Of a stretch of 64,000 nucleotides of DNA, positions 50,907 through 59,151 are shown one piece after another (position 1 is the stretch's first letter; the number at the start of each line of letters is the position of its first letter). This stretch comes from Geodermatophilus sp. DF01-2 (GTDB lineage: Bacteria; Actinomycetota; Actinomycetes; Mycobacteriales; Geodermatophilaceae): NCBI RefSeq assembly GCF_004571065.1, contig NZ_SPQN01000002.1:62001-126000 (forward strand). The letters are read 5' to 3'. Position numbers and translations under genes: made by a program. The notes under the pieces are model-generated. The model saw only the letters and a program-made list of their open reading frames with translations, did not search any database and had not been told where the DNA came from.

Positions 50907-51443
50907 ATGAGCTCTCCCTACTCCGGCGCGACGCCGGTCGGATCGCCCCAGGGCCAGCCGGACCCGTACGGCCAGGGCAACTACGCCGTCGCTCCCGACC
51001 AGGACCAGACCTACAACGAGCACAGCGGCGCCATGGGCACCCCCACGACCGCCACCGGCCGCCCCGACATCGAGGGCGCGTCGGTGGGGCAGCTCTTCGG
51101 TGAGCTCGCCAAGGACCTCTCCACCCTGATGCGCCAGGAGGTCGCCCTGGCCAAGGCCGAGCTCCAGGCCGAGGCCAAGAAGGCCGGCAAGGGCGCAGGC
51201 ATGCTGGGCGCAGCCGGCTTCGCCGGCTACATGGTGCTGCTGTTCCTCTCCTTCGCCCTGTACGCGGCCCTGGCCAACCTCATGGACGCAGGCTGGTCGG
51301 CACTGATCGTCGCGATCCTGTGGGGCGTCATCGGCGCGGTCGCCTTCTCCGTGGGCAAGAAGAAACTGCAGCAGGTGAACCCCAAGCCCGAACGCACCGT
51401 GGACTCCCTGCAGGAGGTCCCCGGCGCCCTCAAGCCCCACTGA
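50907..51443 (+). CDS. Holin-like membrane protein (DUF1469, phage holin superfamily III)
   Basis: A 178-residue protein. After a disordered, Tyr/Gln/Pro-rich N-terminus, residues 60-105 form an amphipathic helix (ELAKDLSTLMRQEVALAKAE, LQAEAKKAGKGAG) typical of DUF1469, then two helices (MLGAAGFAGYMVLLFLSFAL and WSALIVAILWGVIGAVAFSV). Despite the name, such chromosomal copies are not phage holins. It is three bases downstream of the previous gene, so they are co-translated. Confidence 0.85.
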   Translation: MSSPYSGATPVGSPQGQPDPYGQGNYAVAPDQDQTYNEHSGAMGTPTTATGRPDIEGASVGQLFGELAKDLSTLMRQEVALAKAELQAEAKKAGKGAGMLGAAGFAGYMVLLFLSFALYAALANLMDAGWSALIVAILWGVIGAVAFSVGKKKLQQVNPKPERTVDSLQEVPGALKPH

Positions 51444-51484
51444 CCCGCGGCCCTGCGGCCCTCTCAGACATCGGAGTACGGAAC

Positions 51485-52153
51485 ATGACCACGAGCAACG
51501 ACCCCGAGGCCATCCGGCGGCAGATCGAGCAGACCCAGCGCGAGCTGAGCTACGACGTCGACGCCCTCAACGAGAAGGTGAACCCGTCCCGCGTGATGGA
51601 CCGGCGGGTCAGCGCGGCCAAGGGGCGCTTCGGCCGAGCGCGGGATCGGGTGATGGGCAGCGCCCAGGACACCCGGTCGTCGGCCCAGTACCGCACGCAG
51701 AACGCCGCCGGCACCGTGCAGGGCAAGGCGCACGGCGCCGCCGAGTCCGTGCAGGGTGCCGCGCAATCCGCGGCACAGACGGTGCAGCAGGCCCCGGACA
51801 CCATCACCCGGCAGACCCAGGGCAACCCGATGGCCGCCGGCCTCATCGCCTTCGGCGTCGGCTGGCTGGTCTCCAGCCTCATGCCGGCGTCGGAGAGGGA
51901 GCGGCAGCTGGCCCAGCAGGCCGAGTCCGCCGTCCGCGAGCACAAGGACGAGCTCCTCGCCCCGGCCAAGCAGGCGGCGCAGGAGATGCGGGAGGAGCTC
52001 CAGCCCGCCGCCGAGCAGGCGGTCCAGGAGGTCAAGTCCAGCGCGCAGGACGCCACCCAGACCGTCAAGGACGAGAGCCAGTCCGCGAAGCAGGACGTCC
52101 AGGGTCAGGCCCAGCAGTCCCGCCAGACGGTGCAGAGCCAGTCCGGCAGCTGA
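51485..52153 (+). CDS. DUF3618-domain protein with long Gln/Ala helical tail
   Basis: A 222-residue protein. DUF3618: PEAIRRQIEQTQRELSYDVD, then ALNEKVNPSRVMDRRV (8-45). Repeated A/Q/T helices follow (AESVQGAAQSAAQTVQQAP), then one membrane-like segment NPMAAGLIAFGVGWLVSSLM near 115-134, then another coiled A/K/E/Q tail. It is the last gene of the three-gene unit, followed by a perfect terminator hairpin. A 76-residue relative of the DUF3618 part is encoded at 7798. Function not established. Confidence 0.83.
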   Translation: MTTSNDPEAIRRQIEQTQRELSYDVDALNEKVNPSRVMDRRVSAAKGRFGRARDRVMGSAQDTRSSAQYRTQNAAGTVQGKAHGAAESVQGAAQSAAQTVQQAPDTITRQTQGNPMAAGLIAFGVGWLVSSLMPASERERQLAQQAESAVREHKDELLAPAKQAAQEMREELQPAAEQAVQEVKSSAQDATQTVKDESQSAKQDVQGQAQQSRQTVQSQSGS

Positions 52154-52377: not shown

Positions 52378-52524
52378 GTGCCGACCGCCCCGCCGCGCGT
52401 CCTGGTCGCCGACGACGTGGCGCGCGGGCTCGTCGCCGGCGCGGAGGCCCACCTGGCCAAGCCCTTCTCGGTCGCCGGGCTGGCCGTCCGGGTGCGCGAG
52501 CTGGCCACCGGGGCGACGCGATGA
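52378..52524 (+). pseudogene. Internally deleted response-regulator receiver (48 residues)
   Basis: GTG 52378 after a GAGGGAG starts PTAPPRVLVADD, the first strand and acidic pair of a receiver domain. It jumps directly to VAGAEAHLAKPFSVAGLAVR, the last strand with the conserved Lys-Pro, and ends VRELATGATR. The central part with the phospho-accepting Asp is missing (about 75 residues), yet the frame stays open. The TGA overlaps the kinase ATG (ATGA), so it still could couple translation. It is either a dead regulator or a micro-protein leader of the kinase gene. Confidence 0.7.
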
Positions 52525-53786
52525 CCCTCGACTCGCCGAGCACCGCCGAGGCCCCGCCCGCCGGCGCCGACGTCGCCGCCCTGGAGGCCGAGGTGCTCCG
52601 CCTGCGCGCGGAGAACGCCGCGCTGCTGGCCCAGATGCAGCACCGGGACGGCGAGCTGGAGATCGCCACCCGGATGCTTCGGGCGCGGGCGCGGACGATG
52701 ACCAGTGTCATCGACGCGGTCACCGAGCAGTCGATCATCGGCACCGACGTCGACGGCGTCGTCCGCGTCTGGAACCCGGGCGCCGAGCGCATGCTGGGGC
52801 TGCCGCGCGCCGACGTCGTCCGCACCCGGTCGATCACCGACTTCCACCTGCCCGAGGAGCTCGAGGAGGCCGGCGGCGGGCTGGCCGCCCTGGTGCGCAC
52901 GGCGCGGGAGCAGGGCAGCGACGTCCGGGACTGGACCTACGTCGCCGCCGACGGCGAGGAGCTCACCGTCTCGGTGGCGGTGACCCCGCGCACCGACGAC
53001 CGCGGCGTGCACGCCGGCTGGAACTTCGTCGGCACCGACATGACCGAGGCGCGGGCGACCGAGCGGATGAAGGACCAGTTCGTGAGCCTGATCAGCCACG
53101 AACTGCGGACGCCGCTGACCTCGATCCTCGGCTACCTGGAGCTCGTCCTGGACGACGCGGAGCTGACCGAGGACCAGCGGCGACATCTGAGCACCGTCGA
53201 GCGCAACGCCCAGCGGCTGCTGCGGCTGGTCGGCGACCTCCTCTTCACCGCCCAGGTGGACGCCGGCCGGTTCAGCCTCCAGCCCGAGGACGTCGACCTG
53301 GCCGCCGTCGTCCGCGCCGCGGAGGAGACCGCTCGGGTGACCGCCGCCGCGACGGGCGTCGAGATCGTGCTGGCGGTACCCGAGGACGGCCTGGTCGTCC
53401 ACGGTGACGCCGTCCGGCTGGGACAGGCCTGCGACAACCTGGTCTCCAACGCGGTGAAGTTCACCCCGCACGGGGGCCGGGTCACCCTCGCGCTGCGCGC
53501 GGCGTGGCGCACGCCCGGCGGCGCGGTCGCCGACGAGCCGCGGGACGACGCCGTGCCGGTGGCCCGGCTGACGGTGAGCGACACCGGCGTCGGCATCCCC
53601 GCCGGTGAGCAGGGGCAGCTGTTCGCCCGCTTCTTCCGCGCCTCCACCGCCCGGCGCTCCGCGGTGCCCGGGGTCGGGCTGGGCCTGGCGATCACCCGGG
53701 CCATCACCGCCGCGCACGGCGGGACCCTGGAGCTGGCCAGCGTCGAGGGCCGGGGCACCACGTTCACCCTCACCCTCCCCCGCTGA
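52521..53786 (+). CDS. PAS-domain sensor histidine kinase (soluble)
   Basis: A 421-residue kinase without membrane segments. Residues 15-60 are a coiled coil (LEAEVLRLRAENAALLAQMQ), 63-175 a PAS domain (SIIGTDVDGVVRVWNPGAER, WNFVGTDMTEARATE), and the H-box is FVSLISHELRTPLTSILGYL with His193. N box DNLVSNAVKFTPHGG, G1 DTGVGIPAGEQGQLF and G2 GVGLGLAI complete a HisKA/HATPase core. It should sense an intracellular signal and phosphorylate a partner; candidates are the receivers at 55420 and 57700. Confidence 0.93.
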   Translation: MTLDSPSTAEAPPAGADVAALEAEVLRLRAENAALLAQMQHRDGELEIATRMLRARARTMTSVIDAVTEQSIIGTDVDGVVRVWNPGAERMLGLPRADVVRTRSITDFHLPEELEEAGGGLAALVRTAREQGSDVRDWTYVAADGEELTVSVAVTPRTDDRGVHAGWNFVGTDMTEARATERMKDQFVSLISHELRTPLTSILGYLELVLDDAELTEDQRRHLSTVERNAQRLLRLVGDLLFTAQVDAGRFSLQPEDVDLAAVVRAAEETARVTAAATGVEIVLAVPEDGLVVHGDAVRLGQACDNLVSNAVKFTPHGGRVTLALRAAWRTPGGAVADEPRDDAVPVARLTVSDTGVGIPAGEQGQLFARFFRASTARRSAVPGVGLGLAITRAITAAHGGTLELASVEGRGTTFTLTLPR

Positions 53787-53804
53787 GGTCCGCGGCCCCC
53801 GTGC

Positions 53805-53908
53805 AGGTAGAAGGGCCCCGCCCTCCTCACCCCTCGCGAGCTCGCGGCGAGCCTCTGGACGAGGCCTGGCGCGAGCTGGCGAGCGGGGGGCGAGGGGGTC
53901 CTTGGTCT
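53805..53908. repeat. Dispersed GC-rich intergenic repeat, copy 14
   Basis: After the kinase stop: gtagaagggccccgccctcc, then cccctcgcgagctcgcggcg, then a second unit gcgagctggcgagcgggggg and cgagggggtccttgg. The second unit is the left edge of the 833 bp duplication. Confidence 0.65.
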
Positions 53909-54700
53909 TGCGGATCTCTTGCGGTGGGCGGGTGGGTGGCCTGCGGTTGGGGCCGCAGTCTCGTTCCTGTCGCCGGATCACCCCGATCCCGGCCGGACAG
54001 GCAGGAGAGCACCCCCGATGAGCACCGACCGCGCCGGCACCACCCGCAAGGTCTTCGGTTCCCTGGCCGTCATCGGCACCGCCGCCGCGGTCGCCGGCCT
54101 GGGCACCTTCGGCACGTTCACCGACTCCACCACCCCGGTCTCGGCCGAGCTGACCTCCGGCACCGTCTCCATCGACCTCGCCCAGCCCGCCGCTCCGATC
54201 CCGGCCACCACCACCGGCCTGCTGCCCGGCGACACGCTCTCGCGCACCGTCACCCTCACCAACGACGGCAACTCCCCGCTGTCCTCGGTCACCCTCGGCG
54301 TCACCACTCCCACCGCCGGCATCCTCACCACCGACACCGTCCACGGCCTGCAGCTGTCCCTGACCTCCTGCTCGCTGCCCTGGACCCAGAACGGCACCAC
54401 CGCCCCCACCTACACCTGCAGCGGCACCACCACACCCCTGAGCTCCGGCCCGGCCGTGGGCCACCACGCCATCGACGGCGCCGCCAGCCTCACCCCCGGC
54501 GGCGCGGACAACCTCCTGCTCACCCTCGCCCTGCCCGAGAGCGCCGACAACCGCTTCCAGGGCCAGACCAGCACCCTGAACCTCACCTTCTCCGGCATCC
54601 AGCGCGCCGCCACCACCCGCTGACCGCCCGACCCCCGAGCCGACCGGAGCTCCCCATGACCACCGCCCTCCCCCTGCCCCACCCGCGGGCAGCCGCCACC
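53868..54700 (+). repeat. 833 bp perfect duplication, unit A
   Basis: Identical base for base to 56161-56993 (offset 2293). It covers an intergenic-repeat unit, the upstream region, the whole first TasA-like gene and the first 15 codons of the next gene. Identity ends at 54700/56993 (cgg versus ggc). Confidence 0.95.
54018..54623 (+). CDS. TasA/camelysin-family secreted protein, copy 1
   Basis: A 201-residue secreted protein. The signal region VFGSLAVIGTAAAVAGLGTF ends with the SipW-type junction GTFGTFTDSTTPVSAELTSG, and the mature part TVSIDLAQPAAPIPATTTGL, LLPGDTLSRTVTLTNDG is the beta-sandwich start seen in TasA/CalY proteins. Bacillus TasA forms biofilm fibres after cleavage by SipW. 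The neighbouring signal peptidase supports such processing here. It is 100 percent identical to copy 2. Start ATG 54018 follows aggaga. Confidence 0.83.
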   Translation: MSTDRAGTTRKVFGSLAVIGTAAAVAGLGTFGTFTDSTTPVSAELTSGTVSIDLAQPAAPIPATTTGLLPGDTLSRTVTLTNDGNSPLSSVTLGVTTPTAGILTTDTVHGLQLSLTSCSLPWTQNGTTAPTYTCSGTTTPLSSGPAVGHHAIDGAASLTPGGADNLLLTLALPESADNRFQGQTSTLNLTFSGIQRAATTR

Positions 54701-55423
54701 CGGCTGCTGCCCTCGGTCGGCACCGCCCGGCACCTGCTGCGCCCGGTGCCGGCCTTCCTGGGCCGTTGGGCGGTCCGGGCCCTGGTCGCGCTCGCCGTGG
54801 TGGCCTTCGCCGTCCTGGCCGCCGGCCCCCACCTGCTCGGCTACCGCACCATGACCATGCTCACCGCTTCGATGGCCCCGGCCATCGACCCCGGCGACGT
54901 CGTCATCACCACCCCCTTGGCCGTCACCGACGTCACCGAGGGCATGGTCATCAGCTACCACATCCCCATCGACGACCACCGCGTCGTCACCCACCGCGTC
55001 ACCGACGTCACCCACGCCCCCGACGGCACCGTCACCGTCCAGACCAAGGGCGACGCCAACGACCACCCCGACCCCTGGACCGCCGTCCTCCAGGGCGACA
55101 CCGCCTACCAGGTCCAGGCCGTCATCCCCGAGGCCGGCCACCTCATCACCGCCCTGCGCACCCCCACCGTCAGCCACGCCCTCGTCTACGGCGTTCCCGC
55201 CCTGCTCGCCGCCTGGCTCCTGCTCACCATCTGGCGTCCGGTCGCCGGCGCCGACGGCGAGAGCGGCACCGGTACCGACGAGGCCGGCCACCCCGTCAGC
55301 GCGCCGCGCACCGCTCTGGTCAGCCGGCTGGCGGTGTACGGCGCCGCCGCCCTCCTGTCCGGCTGGCTCCTGCTGGGGACCTGGCGCCCGGTTGCCGGGA
55401 CCGACGAGGAGGCACAGCCGTGA
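54656..55423 (+). CDS. SipW-like signal peptidase I (S26B family)
   Basis: A 255-residue membrane protease. A helix at about 36-62 (RWAVRALVALAVVAFAVLAA) is followed by the Ser motif MTMLTASMAPAIDPGDVVIT (catalytic Ser in SMAP) and the S26B His in RVVTHRVTDVTH, instead of the Lys of bacterial type I peptidases. Two C-terminal helices follow (ALVYGVPALLAAWLLLTIW and LAVYGAAALLSGWLLLGTW). It probably removes the TasA-like signal peptides. It is 32 bp after tasA copy 1 and overlaps the next gene by GTGA. Confidence 0.85.
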   Translation: MTTALPLPHPRAAATRLLPSVGTARHLLRPVPAFLGRWAVRALVALAVVAFAVLAAGPHLLGYRTMTMLTASMAPAIDPGDVVITTPLAVTDVTEGMVISYHIPIDDHRVVTHRVTDVTHAPDGTVTVQTKGDANDHPDPWTAVLQGDTAYQVQAVIPEAGHLITALRTPTVSHALVYGVPALLAAWLLLTIWRPVAGADGESGTGTDEAGHPVSAPRTALVSRLAVYGAAALLSGWLLLGTWRPVAGTDEEAQP

Positions 55424-56133
55424 GCAGCCGCACCGTGGACCTCTCCTCCCGCCTCGCGCAGCGTCCGGTGCCGACCGCCCTCGTCGTCGACGCCGACGCC
55501 GCCGACCGCGCCCTGGTCGCCGGGCTGCTGCGGCTCACCGGGTGGGACGTCCGCGAGGCCGCCGGCACCCGCGAGGCCCTGGCCCTGGCCCGCCGCCTGG
55601 ACCTGGACCTGGACCTGGTGGTCACCGACCTGGCCGGCCCGGCCGGTGAGGCACCGGCCCTGCTGCGCCGCCTGCGGTTGGTCGGCTGCCGGGCGCACCT
55701 GCTGGCCGTCGCCGCGGACGCCGCCCCACACGAGCGGGCCGCCGCGCTCGAGGCCGGGGCCCTGGCCTGCCTGCCCAAGCCGGTCGACGCCGGCCTGCTG
55801 CTCGGTCTGCTCCGCCGCCGGACCGCCGGCCCACGGGGGACGGCGTCCGACGCCGGCGACCCGCCGGGCGAGGACGTCGACGCCGAGCTGATGGACCGGC
55901 TGCAGCAGCTCTACGCCGCCGCGCTTCCCAGCCGGCTGACCGCCATCGCGGACGGTGCGCGGGCCGGGGACGCCCCGGCCCTCGCCCGGGCATCGGCCAC
56001 CCTGGCCGGCACCAGTGCGCAGCTGGGCCACCCGGAGGTCGCCGCGGTCTGTCGGGCGATCGCGCAGGACGCACGGCGCGGCGTCCTCGCCCACGACCTG
56101 GTCGTCGAGCTGGCCGCCGTCGCCGGCAGCTGA
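55420..56133 (+). CDS. Receiver plus HPt-like protein, HPt histidine missing
   Basis: A 237-residue protein. Residues 18-130 are a receiver: TALVVDADAADRALVAGLLR, phospho-Asp in LVVTDLAGPAG (about residue 67) and Lys in LPKPVD. The Thr/Ser of the switch is replaced (LLAVAADA). Residues 150-235 form a four-helix HPt-like bundle (ALARASATLAGTSAQLGHPE), where the usual AHxLKG phospho-His site reads ASATLAG, so no His is present. It cannot relay phosphate as a classical HPt and may act as a phosphorylation-gated binder. Start GTG 55420. Confidence 0.8.
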   Translation: MSSRTVDLSSRLAQRPVPTALVVDADAADRALVAGLLRLTGWDVREAAGTREALALARRLDLDLDLVVTDLAGPAGEAPALLRRLRLVGCRAHLLAVAADAAPHERAAALEAGALACLPKPVDAGLLLGLLRRRTAGPRGTASDAGDPPGEDVDAELMDRLQQLYAAALPSRLTAIADGARAGDAPALARASATLAGTSAQLGHPEVAAVCRAIAQDARRGVLAHDLVVELAAVAGS

Positions 56134-56200
56134 AAGGGCCCCGGTCCCCTCCCGAGGCTCGGCGCGAGCTGGCGAGCGGGGGGCGAGGGGGTCCTTGGTC
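56134..56200. repeat. Dispersed GC-rich intergenic repeat, copy 15
   Basis: Reads aaagggccccggtcccctcc, then cgaggctcggcgcgagctgg and cgagcggggggcgagggggt. Its right half is the left edge of duplication unit B. Confidence 0.6.
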
Positions 56201-56993
56201 TTGCGGATCTCTTGCGGTGGGCGGGTGGGTGGCCTGCGGTTGGGGCCGCAGTCTCGTTCCTGTCGCCGGATCACCCCGATCCCGGCCGGACAGGCAGGAG
56301 AGCACCCCCGATGAGCACCGACCGCGCCGGCACCACCCGCAAGGTCTTCGGTTCCCTGGCCGTCATCGGCACCGCCGCCGCGGTCGCCGGCCTGGGCACC
56401 TTCGGCACGTTCACCGACTCCACCACCCCGGTCTCGGCCGAGCTGACCTCCGGCACCGTCTCCATCGACCTCGCCCAGCCCGCCGCTCCGATCCCGGCCA
56501 CCACCACCGGCCTGCTGCCCGGCGACACGCTCTCGCGCACCGTCACCCTCACCAACGACGGCAACTCCCCGCTGTCCTCGGTCACCCTCGGCGTCACCAC
56601 TCCCACCGCCGGCATCCTCACCACCGACACCGTCCACGGCCTGCAGCTGTCCCTGACCTCCTGCTCGCTGCCCTGGACCCAGAACGGCACCACCGCCCCC
56701 ACCTACACCTGCAGCGGCACCACCACACCCCTGAGCTCCGGCCCGGCCGTGGGCCACCACGCCATCGACGGCGCCGCCAGCCTCACCCCCGGCGGCGCGG
56801 ACAACCTCCTGCTCACCCTCGCCCTGCCCGAGAGCGCCGACAACCGCTTCCAGGGCCAGACCAGCACCCTGAACCTCACCTTCTCCGGCATCCAGCGCGC
56901 CGCCACCACCCGCTGACCGCCCGACCCCCGAGCCGACCGGAGCTCCCCATGACCACCGCCCTCCCCCTGCCCCACCCGCGGGCAGCCGCCACC
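56161..56993 (+). repeat. 833 bp perfect duplication, unit B
   Basis: Identical to 53868-54700. The left edge is inside a dispersed intergenic repeat, and the right edge is after codon 15 of the next gene. Confidence 0.95.
56311..56916 (+). CDS. TasA/camelysin-family secreted protein, copy 2 (identical to copy 1)
   Basis: A 201-residue protein with the same DNA and protein sequence as the 54018 gene, including its upstream region of about 150 bp. Either two doses of one matrix protein are made, or the second copy is a recent by-product of duplication with no time to diverge. It is followed 32 bp later by a gene that shares the first 15 codons of sipW. Confidence 0.83.
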   Translation: MSTDRAGTTRKVFGSLAVIGTAAAVAGLGTFGTFTDSTTPVSAELTSGTVSIDLAQPAAPIPATTTGLLPGDTLSRTVTLTNDGNSPLSSVTLGVTTPTAGILTTDTVHGLQLSLTSCSLPWTQNGTTAPTYTCSGTTTPLSSGPAVGHHAIDGAASLTPGGADNLLLTLALPESADNRFQGQTSTLNLTFSGIQRAATTR

Positions 56994-57587
56994 GGCCGCT
57001 GGGCGGTCCGGGCCCTGGTCGCGCTCGCCGTCGTCGCCTCCGCCGTCCTCGGCGCCGGCGCCGCGAACGCCACCTTCTCCGACTCCGTGGCGCTCCCGGC
57101 GATGACCGTCGGCACGGGCACGGTGGCCCCGGCCACCGACGTCACGGTCGAGACCACGTGCCGCACGACGACGACGGTGGTCAAGCGGACCTACCGCGTG
57201 AGCCCGGGAACGGGGGCCACCACGCTGATCGCCTACAGCCTGACCTCGAGCACCGTCACCAGCACGAGCAACGTCGAGAGCGACGAGACGACGACCACGT
57301 GGTCCAAGCCCACGGAGTACACGACCACGCAGACCGTCCAGGACACCGAGCTGTACGCGACGCTGAGGTGGCAGCCGAGCACCTCGACCCGGGTCACCGG
57401 CTACCGCATGACGGCGCACACCACGTACGGCCCCTACCCGATGGGTGAGACCGGCCCGACGACCACCCGGATGTCCGCGCGGTACGACGCCGATGTCGTC
57501 GACTACGGCGCGCAGCTGTCGATCGACACGCTGACCGACTACGGCTGGACGGCCACCTCGGACCTCAGCAACGTCGTCACCTGCTGA
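56949..57587 (+). CDS. Secreted Thr-rich protein with chimeric, sipW-derived N-terminus
   Basis: A 212-residue protein. Codons 1-15 are identical to sipW, and the next 20 (GRWAVRALVALAVVASAVLG) resemble sipW residues 36-55. It then becomes a SipW-type secreted protein: AGAANATFSDSVALPAMTV, followed by a Thr/Ser-rich region (TTCRTTTTVVKRTYRVSPG) and a fibronectin-like end (STSTRVTGYRMTAHTTYGP, DYGWTATSDLSNVVTC). Two Cys (near the mature start and the last residue) could pair. Geodermatophilaceae carry similar secreted proteins; function unknown. Confidence 0.75.
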   Translation: MTTALPLPHPRAAATGRWAVRALVALAVVASAVLGAGAANATFSDSVALPAMTVGTGTVAPATDVTVETTCRTTTTVVKRTYRVSPGTGATTLIAYSLTSSTVTSTSNVESDETTTTWSKPTEYTTTQTVQDTELYATLRWQPSTSTRVTGYRMTAHTTYGPYPMGETGPTTTRMSARYDADVVDYGAQLSIDTLTDYGWTATSDLSNVVTC

Positions 57588-57591
57588 CCGC

Positions 57592-57699
57592 GGCCCCCTG
57601 CAGGGACCCGACGCCGGCCCCGTCCAGGGCACCGCCCCGAGCGGAGCGAGGGGTGGGGAGGACGGGGTCCTTCCACGGTGGGGACAGGGGGGTCCTTGC
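57592..57699. repeat. Dispersed GC-rich intergenic repeat, copy 16
   Basis: Between convergent stops. Reads ccccctgcagggacccgacg, then gggcaccgccccgagcggag, then cgaggggtggggaggacggg and gtggggacaggggggtcct. Confidence 0.7.
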
Positions 57700-58398
57700 T
57701 CAGGCGACGAGCCGGTAGCCGACCCCTCGCACGGTGCGGATCTCCGGCGAGGAGAGTCCGGCGGCCTGCAGCTTGCGGCGCAGGTTGGACATGTGTGCCT
57801 CGACCAGGCGGACGCTGCCCTCCCAATCGGTCTGCCAGACCTCGCGCAGCAGCGTCTCGCGCTGCAGCACCCGGCCCGGCCGGGACGCCAGCGCGGCGAG
57901 CAGGTCGAACTCGGTGCGGGTCAGGTCGACGACGGCGCCGTCCACCCGGACCTCGCGGCTGTCCTCGTCCACCTCGAGCTCGGCCAGCCGCAGCACCGAC
58001 TCCTCGACCGGCGCGGGACGCGGGGCGGGGATGCGCGGCCGGCGCAGCATCGCCTGCACGCGGGCGACCAGCTCGCGCGGGGAGAAGGGCTTGGCCATGT
58101 ACCCGTCGGCGCCGACGGCCAGCCCGATGAGCAGGTCGACCTCCTCGGCGCGGGCGGTGAGCATGAGGACGTAGCACTCGCTCTCGGCGCGGACCTGCCG
58201 GCACACCTCGGTGCCGTCGGCGTCGGGCAGGCCCAGGTCGAGGACGACGACGTCGGGTGCGGCACGCCGGACCTCGACCAGCGCCTCGGCGCCGGACGCG
58301 ACCGCGCGGACGTCCATCCCCGCCTTGCGCAGGACCGTGCAGACCAGCTCCCTGATCTCCTCGGTGTCCTCCACGACGAGCACGGACTGCTCGGGCAC
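57700..58398 (-). CDS. OmpR/PhoB-family response regulator
   Basis: A 232-residue regulator. Receiver at 5-118: VLVVEDTEEIRELVCTVL, phospho-Asp54 in VVVLDLGLPDADGTE, switch Thr in VLMLTARAEE, Lys in GYMAKPFSPREL. Winged-helix effector domain at 135-230: ELEVDEDSREVRVDGAVVDL, TRTEFDLLAALASRPGRVLQ, VEAHMSNLRRKL, RTVRGVGYRL. Start GTG 58398 follows a long GGAGGAGGAG. It faces the TasA/SipW unit across a repeat and may be the output of the nearby kinase, although it is on the other strand. Confidence 0.94.
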   Translation of the reverse strand: MPEQSVLVVEDTEEIRELVCTVLRKAGMDVRAVASGAEALVEVRRAAPDVVVLDLGLPDADGTEVCRQVRAESECYVLMLTARAEEVDLLIGLAVGADGYMAKPFSPRELVARVQAMLRRPRIPAPRPAPVEESVLRLAELEVDEDSREVRVDGAVVDLTRTEFDLLAALASRPGRVLQRETLLREVWQTDWEGSVRLVEAHMSNLRRKLQAAGLSSPEIRTVRGVGYRLVA

Positions 58399-58522
58399 GA
58401 CCTCTCCTCCTCCGGGTGTGGACCGACGCCGGCGGGGGCCGGACGTCACCTGACCGGGTGATCGGCGCCGTCCGTGCCGGGCTTGAGCGGGGCCCGCCGG
58501 CCTCACCCGCAGGGAGGAGGCG

Positions 58523-58740
58523 TCAGCCGGCCCGCCGGTGCAGCTCCACCGCCGAGAACGCCACGCCGACCCGGCCGGTGGGCCACGAGCACCTCTCCCG
58601 CCCGCTCGGTCAGCAGCGCCACGGACGCCGTGGCCGCAGCCCATCTCGAGCGCCCGCTCCCCCGTTGCGCGGCGACCACACCGGCGGCCCAGGCCGGACG
58701 CTCGGAGGGAGCGACGGCGGCACCGTAGGGGCTCACCCCG
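58523..58740 (-). pseudogene. Degenerate coding remnant of unknown family
   Basis: On the reverse strand AAATASVALLTERAGEVLVA then HRPG runs into another frame as VGVAFSAVELHRRAG and stop at 58523-58525. A shift of about one base joins the pieces into a C-terminal end. No family recognised. The rest of the 459 bp gap 58399-58857 contains a small GC hairpin near 58756-58785 and the aggagg of the next gene. Confidence 0.3.
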
Positions 58741-58857
58741 ACGGGGCGGACGCCGTCCCGCCCGGCTCAAGGCCGGGACGGGCGGCGTCGAGACCATCCG
58801 CGCCCCACTCCGAGGGCGCCCCCGGGGCCCGCTGCCCCGCCCAGCAGGAGGACCGCC

Positions 58858-59151
58858 ATGATCGGCCTCACCCGCCGCACCGGCGAGCACTGCCGCCTGG
58901 ACCCCGACCACATCGAGCGGGTCGAGGCGGGATCCGACACCGTCGTCGTCACGACCGACGGCAGCTCCTACTGCGTCCGCGAGACGGTGGACCAGATCAT
59001 CGTGAAGGTCCGCGAGGACCGCGCCGGCGTGATCGCGGCCTGCTACGTGCTCGACCGCGGTGAGGACGCCGACCCGCAGGGCCTCGGCCGCCGCGACCTC
59101 CCACCCGAGGCGCACGGCCCCGCACCGGTGATCCCCATCCGGCTGCCGTAG
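58858..59151 (+). CDS. FlbD-like protein
   Basis: A 97-residue protein that matches FlbD/SwrD in its first 60 residues: MIGLTRRTGEHCRLDPDHIE, then RVEAGSDTVVVTTDGSSYCV, then RETVDQIIVKVRED. FlbD proteins of Gram-positive bacteria sit in flagellar operons and influence stator function. No flagellar gene is visible here. The C-terminal 35 residues are Pro/Arg-rich. GGAGGA lies eight bases upstream of ATG 58858. It may be an orphan copy outside the flagellar cluster. Confidence 0.75.
   Translation: MIGLTRRTGEHCRLDPDHIERVEAGSDTVVVTTDGSSYCVRETVDQIIVKVREDRAGVIAACYVLDRGEDADPQGLGRRDLPPEAHGPAPVIPIRLP

Follow-up and report, generated by a model that had tools for sequence, protein, structure and literature searches.

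A conserved TasA/SipW-type locus with linked two-component genes and a putative operator in Geodermatophilus and its relatives

The stretch of DNA considered here (the window) comprises 64,000 nucleotides of Geodermatophilus sp. DF01-2 (NZ_SPQN01000002.1; C119:62001-126000), whose 4.45 Mb genome is assembled in 199 contigs. It carries a locus that probably encodes TasA-type fibres controlled by a kinase and a response regulator, with a pseudo-histidine phosphotransfer (HPt) protein as the partner of a SipW-type signal peptidase. Confidence is highest for the conservation of the locus and of the array of short boxes before its tasA genes, moderate for the fibres, and low for the role of the HPt partner. 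Every gene that an initial annotation had named at 52378-59151 was found again by reading frames, Pfam and NCBIfam, including the two identical TasA-like proteins, both of which lie inside an unbroken 833-bp identity. The parts of the locus are as follows.

52378-52524, + strand: receiver remnant, 48 aa; GTG start, stop overlapping the kinase ATG as ATGA
52521-53786, + strand: PAS-HisKA-HATPase histidine kinase (Pfam PAS, HisKA, HATPase); no membrane segment by hydropathy
53868-54700, + strand: 833-bp identical repeat, first copy (leader, tasA, 15 codons of sipW)
53908-53946, + strand: putative operator A, four TGCGG-like boxes, the third weak
54018-54623, + strand: TasA-like secreted protein, copy A (Pfam Peptidase_M73)
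54656-55423, + strand: SipW-type signal peptidase (S26B) with S72/H113/D133 (NCBIfam TIGR02228)
55420-56133, + strand: receiver-HPt protein, its HPt without phospho-histidine (Pfam Response_reg and borderline Hpt); overlaps sipW by GTGA at 55420-55423, as first annotated
56161-56993, + strand: 833-bp identical repeat, second copy
56201-56239, + strand: putative operator B
56311-56916, + strand: TasA-like secreted protein, copy B, identical to copy A
56949-57587, + strand: Sec3, the third secreted protein, with a SipW-derived N-terminus and a body that may be fibronectin-III-like
57700-58398, - strand: OmpR-family response regulator (Pfam Response_reg and Trans_reg_C)

Conservation of the locus and its box array

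Sixty-one genomes were searched, and matches were taken as strong at E 1e-140 for the kinase, 1e-110 for the regulator, 1e-40 for tasA and 1e-60 for sipW, or better. Strong matches to the kinase and to the regulator occur in the same 27 genomes, from which weak matches to the regulator (G038, G043) and to the kinase (G039, G054) were set apart. All strong tasA matches (16 genomes) and sipW matches (15 genomes) fall inside this set, and weaker ones occur outside it, for example in G037. A SipW search further yielded 53 loci of the family, which contain sipW by construction and include two records of one strain (L084, L085); the order kinase-tasA-sipW is present in 47 of them, an opposing regulator in 49, a receiver-HPt match in 49 and a receiver match just before the kinase in 39. 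Three of the six exceptions to this order are cut by contig ends (L104, L127, L085), and L082, with no regulator in the 8 kb past receiver-HPt, is one arm of the split locus of G012. The other two, L133 and L137, are real; in L133 (Modestobacter sp. Leaf380) the kinase adjoins the regulator on the same strand. Scattering of these genes among relatives had been named in the initial annotation as an argument against a common system, and because most relatives with these genes keep them together as a conserved unit, it was not found, with G012 as the one clear exception. Outside the family, an opposing OmpR regulator lies near sipW in all six Nocardioides loci and in three of six Arthrobacter loci, and no tasA match was found in L130-L132 and L145. 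Two records that hold actinobacterial-looking TasA/SipW loci are titled Vibrio cholerae strain 35D (L134) and Bacillus sp. AZ43 (L095), titles which look wrong.

The tasA leaders share a candidate control sequence, whose consensus over 62 leaders is CTTGCGGattcCTTGCGGatcGCtGGCGGGtGgCCTGCGG, followed by 9 bp and CAGAGT, the last being CAGTCT in the window, where the third box is weak. Four TGCGG-like boxes at steps of about 11 bp, with at most two of 24 fixed bases off, are found in 60 of the 62, a count that measures uniformity since the pattern was taken from these same leaders. Their kinship inflates that uniformity, and the bases between the boxes vary more than the boxes. Of the 63 hits that tblastn gave in 60 loci, 62 supplied these leaders, with both copies counted where a genome has two and none from L082, L085, L127 or L130-L132; the two divergent ones, from Modestobacter Leaf380 and Klenkia, have seven mismatches each. 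The array ends 63-72 bp upstream of the tasA start codon, and in the search pattern its boxes start at 0, 11, 23 and 33 (the third at 22 if read TGGCGG). RNAalifold found next to no shared RNA folding between the promoter and the start codon in the 62 leaders (-0.3 kcal/mol).

When 3000 segments were drawn at random from these loci, 35 held such a site, all 35 at a tasA promoter and none elsewhere, and the window contains two occurrences of the two-box core where 0.02 would be expected. Allowing three mismatches, the whole genome contains three arrays, namely the two in the window and one at C119:27795-27833 that immediately precedes a lone tasA. This third tasA (G000:C119:27126-27704; L080), with the same box array, lies about 88 kb to the left of the locus and outside the window. 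Two other perfect TTGCGG-N5-TTGCGG sequences, on C104 and C177, lack a full array and by eye stand beside integrase-like and transposase-like open reading frames, and were set aside as chance.

Across the 61 genomes the same tolerance gives 64 sites, against five for the reversed pattern; 30 of these precede a tasA match, and of the 39 tasA matches 30 are preceded by one. The other 34 were sorted by hand from gene positions: four lie before sec3 (G003, G022, G025, G026), six before receiver-HPt or its HPt part (G005, G008, G009, G010, G015, G024), one between receiver-HPt and the regulator (G008), two at contig ends of G012, one before a tasA stump (G035) and one in G026:C53. Another ten, to judge from the resemblance of their promoters and sometimes from flanking genes, seem to mark the distant tasA locus where tasA itself is lost or broken, and eight, at two to three mismatches, are unexplained. 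The last of the 34, an array with two mismatches, precedes the gene for another response regulator in G003 (C15:52397-52435; L168), which is a possible further target. At the distant locus of several relatives, the array seems to have been retained where tasA is gone or broken.

OmpR-type regulators bind tandem repeats of this kind, and a position just before the -10 element is the place of a PhoB-type activator site. The array shares with such operators its tandem direct repeats, its steps of about 11 bp and its end just before the -10, and differs from them in its boxes (TTGCGG, TTGCGG, tGGCGGG, CTGCGG). It is likely an OmpR-family operator, to which the regulator of this locus may bind, and the presence of arrays before both window tasA genes argues for direct two-component control. 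By eye, the Nocardioides leaders L138, L141 and L142 carry TTGCGGATCTCTTGAGG at a spacing of about 11 bp, and the leaders of L134-L136 and L139 carry CTTCGG repeats about 11 bp apart.

The regulator is assigned to the OmpR family by its Pfam receiver and Trans_reg_C domains, and is 96-98% identical to copies in eight genus-mates. Beyond it lies the gene of a FlbD-like protein (Pfam FlbD), which was included in the initial annotation; it is present, but was dropped as a component of the system, as it is matched in only part of the family loci. Two upstream genes at 50907-52153 of the window, the second a DUF3618 gene, are matched in most family loci.

TasA-like proteins and the tasA repeat

The window TasA passes Pfam PF12389 (Peptidase_M73, the TasA/camelysin family) with 30.1 bits against a cut-off of 22.5, and this family is matched by all 30 relatives at E 0.01. 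Compared as a profile with the solved TasA structures 5of1 and 8aur, it gives matches of about 1e-6 that cover part of the N-terminal half. Structure prediction, proposed with the initial annotation, gave a model of mean pLDDT 75, mostly above 90 in the core, for which Foldseek returned 5of1 as the best match (E 2.3e-4) and 8aur as the second (E 1.5e-3), so that homology to TasA holds by both sequence and fold. Donor-strand exchange is described for Bacillus TasA fibres (PMC9674648, in excerpt). Residues 1-56 of the model are without structure, as would be expected for a signal peptide and donor strand, and the mature N-terminus of the TasA-like proteins is conserved, features that fit donor-strand exchange.

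Sec3, modelled at pLDDT 88, has an all-beta body whose best fold match is an endoglycosidase (TM 0.29), followed by many fibronectin-III domains (E 0.003-0.05); the body is thus only weakly assigned as fibronectin-III-like. The earlier description of Sec3 as a third SipW-type secreted protein is upheld as to its presence but corrected in kind, as the protein starts with a copy of the N-terminus of SipW itself. The 833-bp repeat, 53868-54700 being identical to 56161-56993, spans about 150 bp of leader and the entire tasA gene, and reaches 15 codons into the gene that follows, sipW or sec3. Past its end Sec3 continues like the SipW membrane segment (109 bp, 80%), and its signal region therefore derives from sipW. 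The Sec3 proteins of G003, G025 and G012 are by eye similar to that of the window, and a short signal peptide is present in 18 of 21 aligned Sec3 proteins.

Repeats of other loci range widely in identity: 99.7% over 1529 bp in Modestobacter lapidis, 97.2% in Blastococcus TBT05-19, 84% in G013 and 80% in Blastococcus URHD0036. The long repeat of Blastococcus TF02A-26 is 86% identical, yet its TasA proteins are identical, and in G. siccatus (G025) the repeat is limited to about 200 bp of leader. The tasA repeats of different loci apparently differ in age. In the TasA tree, copies from the same genome are sisters in the window, G013, M. lapidis, TBT05-19, TF02A-26 and G. sabuli (weak support), and are not sisters in CPCC 205250 and URHD0036; duplication or gene conversion thus seems to keep the copies alike in several lineages, though not in all.

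The repeats may also explain altered layouts. In G012 the same tasA leader forms the end of two contigs, following the kinase on one and unrelated DNA on the other, and two start with the same tasA end, one leading to sipW and receiver-HPt and the other to sec3, while the regulator lies about 77 kb inside its contig (contigs C3, C4, C5 and C10; L061, L076, L196-L198). From these contig ends, and from the position of the regulator, it appears that G012 carries two identical copies of tasA and that its locus is split. G016 has kinase-tasA-sec3, with no match to sipW or receiver-HPt at the thresholds used. Both layouts match the outcome that recombination between tasA repeats would be expected to have. 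In G014:C51 (L075), tasA and sipW are broken and run together, and the kinase, receiver-HPt and regulator are present.

SipW and the HPt-like domain

The window SipW passes TIGR02228 with 60.5 bits against a cut-off of 51.85, and its profile matches include Sec11. Residues S72, H113 and D133, which we take to be catalytic, are invariant in all 11 SipW proteins compared. These features class the protein as an S26B, SipW-type signal peptidase. The 3' part of sipW contains a 78-bp near repeat (55184-55261 and 55334-55411, 76%), so that part of the second membrane segment recurs in the tail. A distant S26B peptidase (31-39% identity) is encoded elsewhere in several genus-mates and one family member (L016, L019, L021, L022, L024-L029).

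Outside the family, SipW extends for more than 100 residues past its second membrane segment, as placed by the hydropathy of L131 and L138 only, in eight of 13 loci: Nocardioides L138, L141, L142 and L145, Arthrobacter L130-L132, and L136, from a Micrococcaceae metagenome-assembled genome (MAG). A long tail is lacking in Nocardioides L144 and L150 and in Arthrobacter L135, L139 and L140. Against the Pfam Hpt cut-off of 24.6 bits, the tail of L138 scores above (35.2) and that of L145 just below (24.0); five others match more weakly (12.1-20.5 bits) and L136 has no match. A profile comparison of seven tails with ten Geodermatophilaceae HPt regions gave E 3.3e-5 at a probability of 72%, and by eye the HPt histidine is seemingly missing from the tails. 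Among 394 genomes of the class, this SipW is matched in ten, and in three (G353, G359, G436) the match includes the tail. Because an HPt-like domain is fused to SipW in one lineage and encoded by a gene overlapping sipW in another, these arrangements suggest that the two work together.

The HPt region of the window is itself borderline in Pfam (24.1 bits against 24.6) and has Ala at the position of the phospho-histidine; the receiver part of the same protein keeps Asp and Lys, with Ala at the Thr position. Among 68 homologue rows, in which one genome appears twice (L061, L082) and not all genus-mates are included (G015, for example, is left out), 21 keep His, 48 Asp, 42 Lys and 13 the full D/T/K/H set, and the only genus-mate of the window in this table with the HPt His is MAG G020 (L119). 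Most relatives read have an intact stand-alone receiver. In the window an in-frame deletion has kept both of its ends and removed the middle with the phospho-Asp, and G003, G025 and G014 retain even shorter in-frame stubs that run up to the start of the kinase.

Proposed fibre control, its alternatives and known systems

The proposed system would operate as follows. The cytoplasmic PAS kinase (52521-53786) and the opposing OmpR-family regulator (57700-58398) would form a two-component pair, the regulator binding TGCGG-like arrays that end 9 bp before a putative -10 (consensus CAGAGT, CAGTCT in the window) and switching on, rather than repressing, tasA-sipW-(receiver-HPt), tasA-sec3 and the third tasA 88 kb away. 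TasA-like subunits would be exported, cut by SipW and polymerised by donor-strand exchange into surface fibres, with Sec3 as a minor or accessory subunit. Receiver-HPt would be an accessory protein that partners SipW on its cytoplasmic side, the kinase-regulator pair, or both, and in this species would presumably work by binding and not by phosphotransfer. A more tentative extension, which we consider less likely than not, is that the HPt-like domain on the cytoplasmic side of SipW senses TasA export or processing and feeds back on the kinase and OmpR regulator, whereby secretion would control transcription of its own substrate.

Several observations weigh against this scheme. The kinase and regulator occur without strong tasA or sipW matches in ten of the 61 genomes (G001, G004, G005, G008-G011, G015, G017, G024) and thus do not serve fibres alone; eight of the ten have at least the HPt part, and in six a box-array site precedes the receiver-HPt gene or HPt part. 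Conversely, G037, a member of the same order, has adjacent tasA and sipW matches without a strong kinase or regulator match, and the kinase, sipW with receiver-HPt, sec3 and the regulator of G012 are spread over four contigs. For two full-length family tasA matches (G036:C7, G020:C45) only a site with four mismatches is present, and a weak tasA match in G033 has none at three mismatches. The Arthrobacter regulator L131 has another regulator as its best single match (135 bits) and meets that of the window only in two pieces (116 and 81 bits), leaving orthology in Arthrobacter unclear. Neither equivalog is reached by the window proteins, with 13.7 bits against 450 for TasA (NF046066, matched at E 0.01 by 26 of 30 relatives, the window protein not among them) and 58.3 against 190 for SipW (NF046067), and the TM-score of the TasA model to TasA is a modest 0.43.

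The ten genomes with kinase and regulator alone, together with the split in G012, would also suit a reading in which the two-component and fibre genes are mere neighbours, the fibre cassette having come to lie between the kinase and receiver-HPt with no functional tie. This is improbable, as the array precedes both window tasA genes and the one 88 kb away, and is kept by both tasA arms of the split G012 locus. Moreover, the pairing of sipW with an opposing OmpR regulator is seen again in Nocardioides, where 11-bp repeats stand upstream of tasA, and the one Nocardioides regulator tested (L141) finds its best match in this genome in the regulator of the window, well ahead of the runner-up (218 against 161 bits). 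Somewhat less improbable, though still unlikely, is that the TasA-like proteins do not polymerise and act instead as individual surface proteins or as camelysin-like proteases; Pfam labels the family a metallo-endopeptidase, and the likeness to Bacillus TasA lies mostly in the N-terminal half, but TasA is the best fold match, and the conserved mature N-terminus and unstructured residues 1-56 fit a donor strand.

A phosphorelay was part of the initial annotation; a true one would run from kinase to receiver to HPt to OmpR regulator. Receiver and HPt domains do adjoin the kinase and regulator, the window protein keeps the receiver Asp and Lys, and the 21 homologues with the HPt His, 13 of them with the full set, indicate that the ancestral protein may have relayed. 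For the window such a relay is very improbable, given the Ala at the HPt histidine position and the loss of Asp from the stand-alone receiver; additionally, the Blastococcus copies L101, L108 and L109 seem to have lost the receiver part. The original proposal of a controlled surface fibre system is partly supported, by the conserved unit, the TasA homology, the Ser/His/Asp of SipW and the box arrays; its phosphorelay, as first put, is not supported. Only a very slight chance is left for the identical tasA pair being an assembly artefact. The genome is in 199 contigs, and identical repeats assemble poorly, but different genes follow the two copies, near-identical pairs are found in other genera, as in Modestobacter lapidis, and the contig pairs of G012 that end or start in the same tasA look like two unresolved identical copies.

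The preferred reading, kinase- and regulator-controlled TasA-type fibres, places the locus beside the tapA-sipW-tasA operon of Bacillus subtilis, with which it shares a secreted TasA-family subunit next to a dedicated S26B peptidase, a TasA-like fold, and an N-terminal segment placed like the donor strand of B. subtilis TasA (PMC9674648, in excerpt). In contrast to that operon, the order here is tasA-sipW, a third secreted protein that may be fibronectin-III-like is encoded, and a receiver-HPt gene overlaps sipW; a kinase/OmpR pair is linked to the locus, whereas Bacillus uses SinR (PMC4238804, in excerpt). The SipW of B. subtilis is reported to be bifunctional, a peptidase with a second role in biofilm development (reviewed in PMC4238804, in excerpt, on Terra et al. 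2012). The peptidase is common to both systems, and a second role is here only suggested, through the HPt-like tail of some Nocardioides and Arthrobacter proteins and the separate overlapping gene of Geodermatophilaceae. Among the matches listed, the open-licence literature contained no description of this locus.

To our knowledge, TasA fibres are known chiefly from Bacillus. A TasA fibre with a dedicated SipW is of a kind already known; what is new is the host group, the linked two-component control, the candidate operator and the tie between HPt and SipW. The tasA repeats show the gene of a surface protein duplicating, splitting and being lost, in action. The HPt-like tails of SipW offer a concrete and testable form for the second role reported for Bacillus SipW in biofilms. 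Together, these features describe an actinobacterial version of the TasA system that is found family-wide, is linked to a two-component system, has few target genes and offers a clear candidate operator, and the same candidate control sequence before each fibre gene makes fibre control directly testable in these bacteria.

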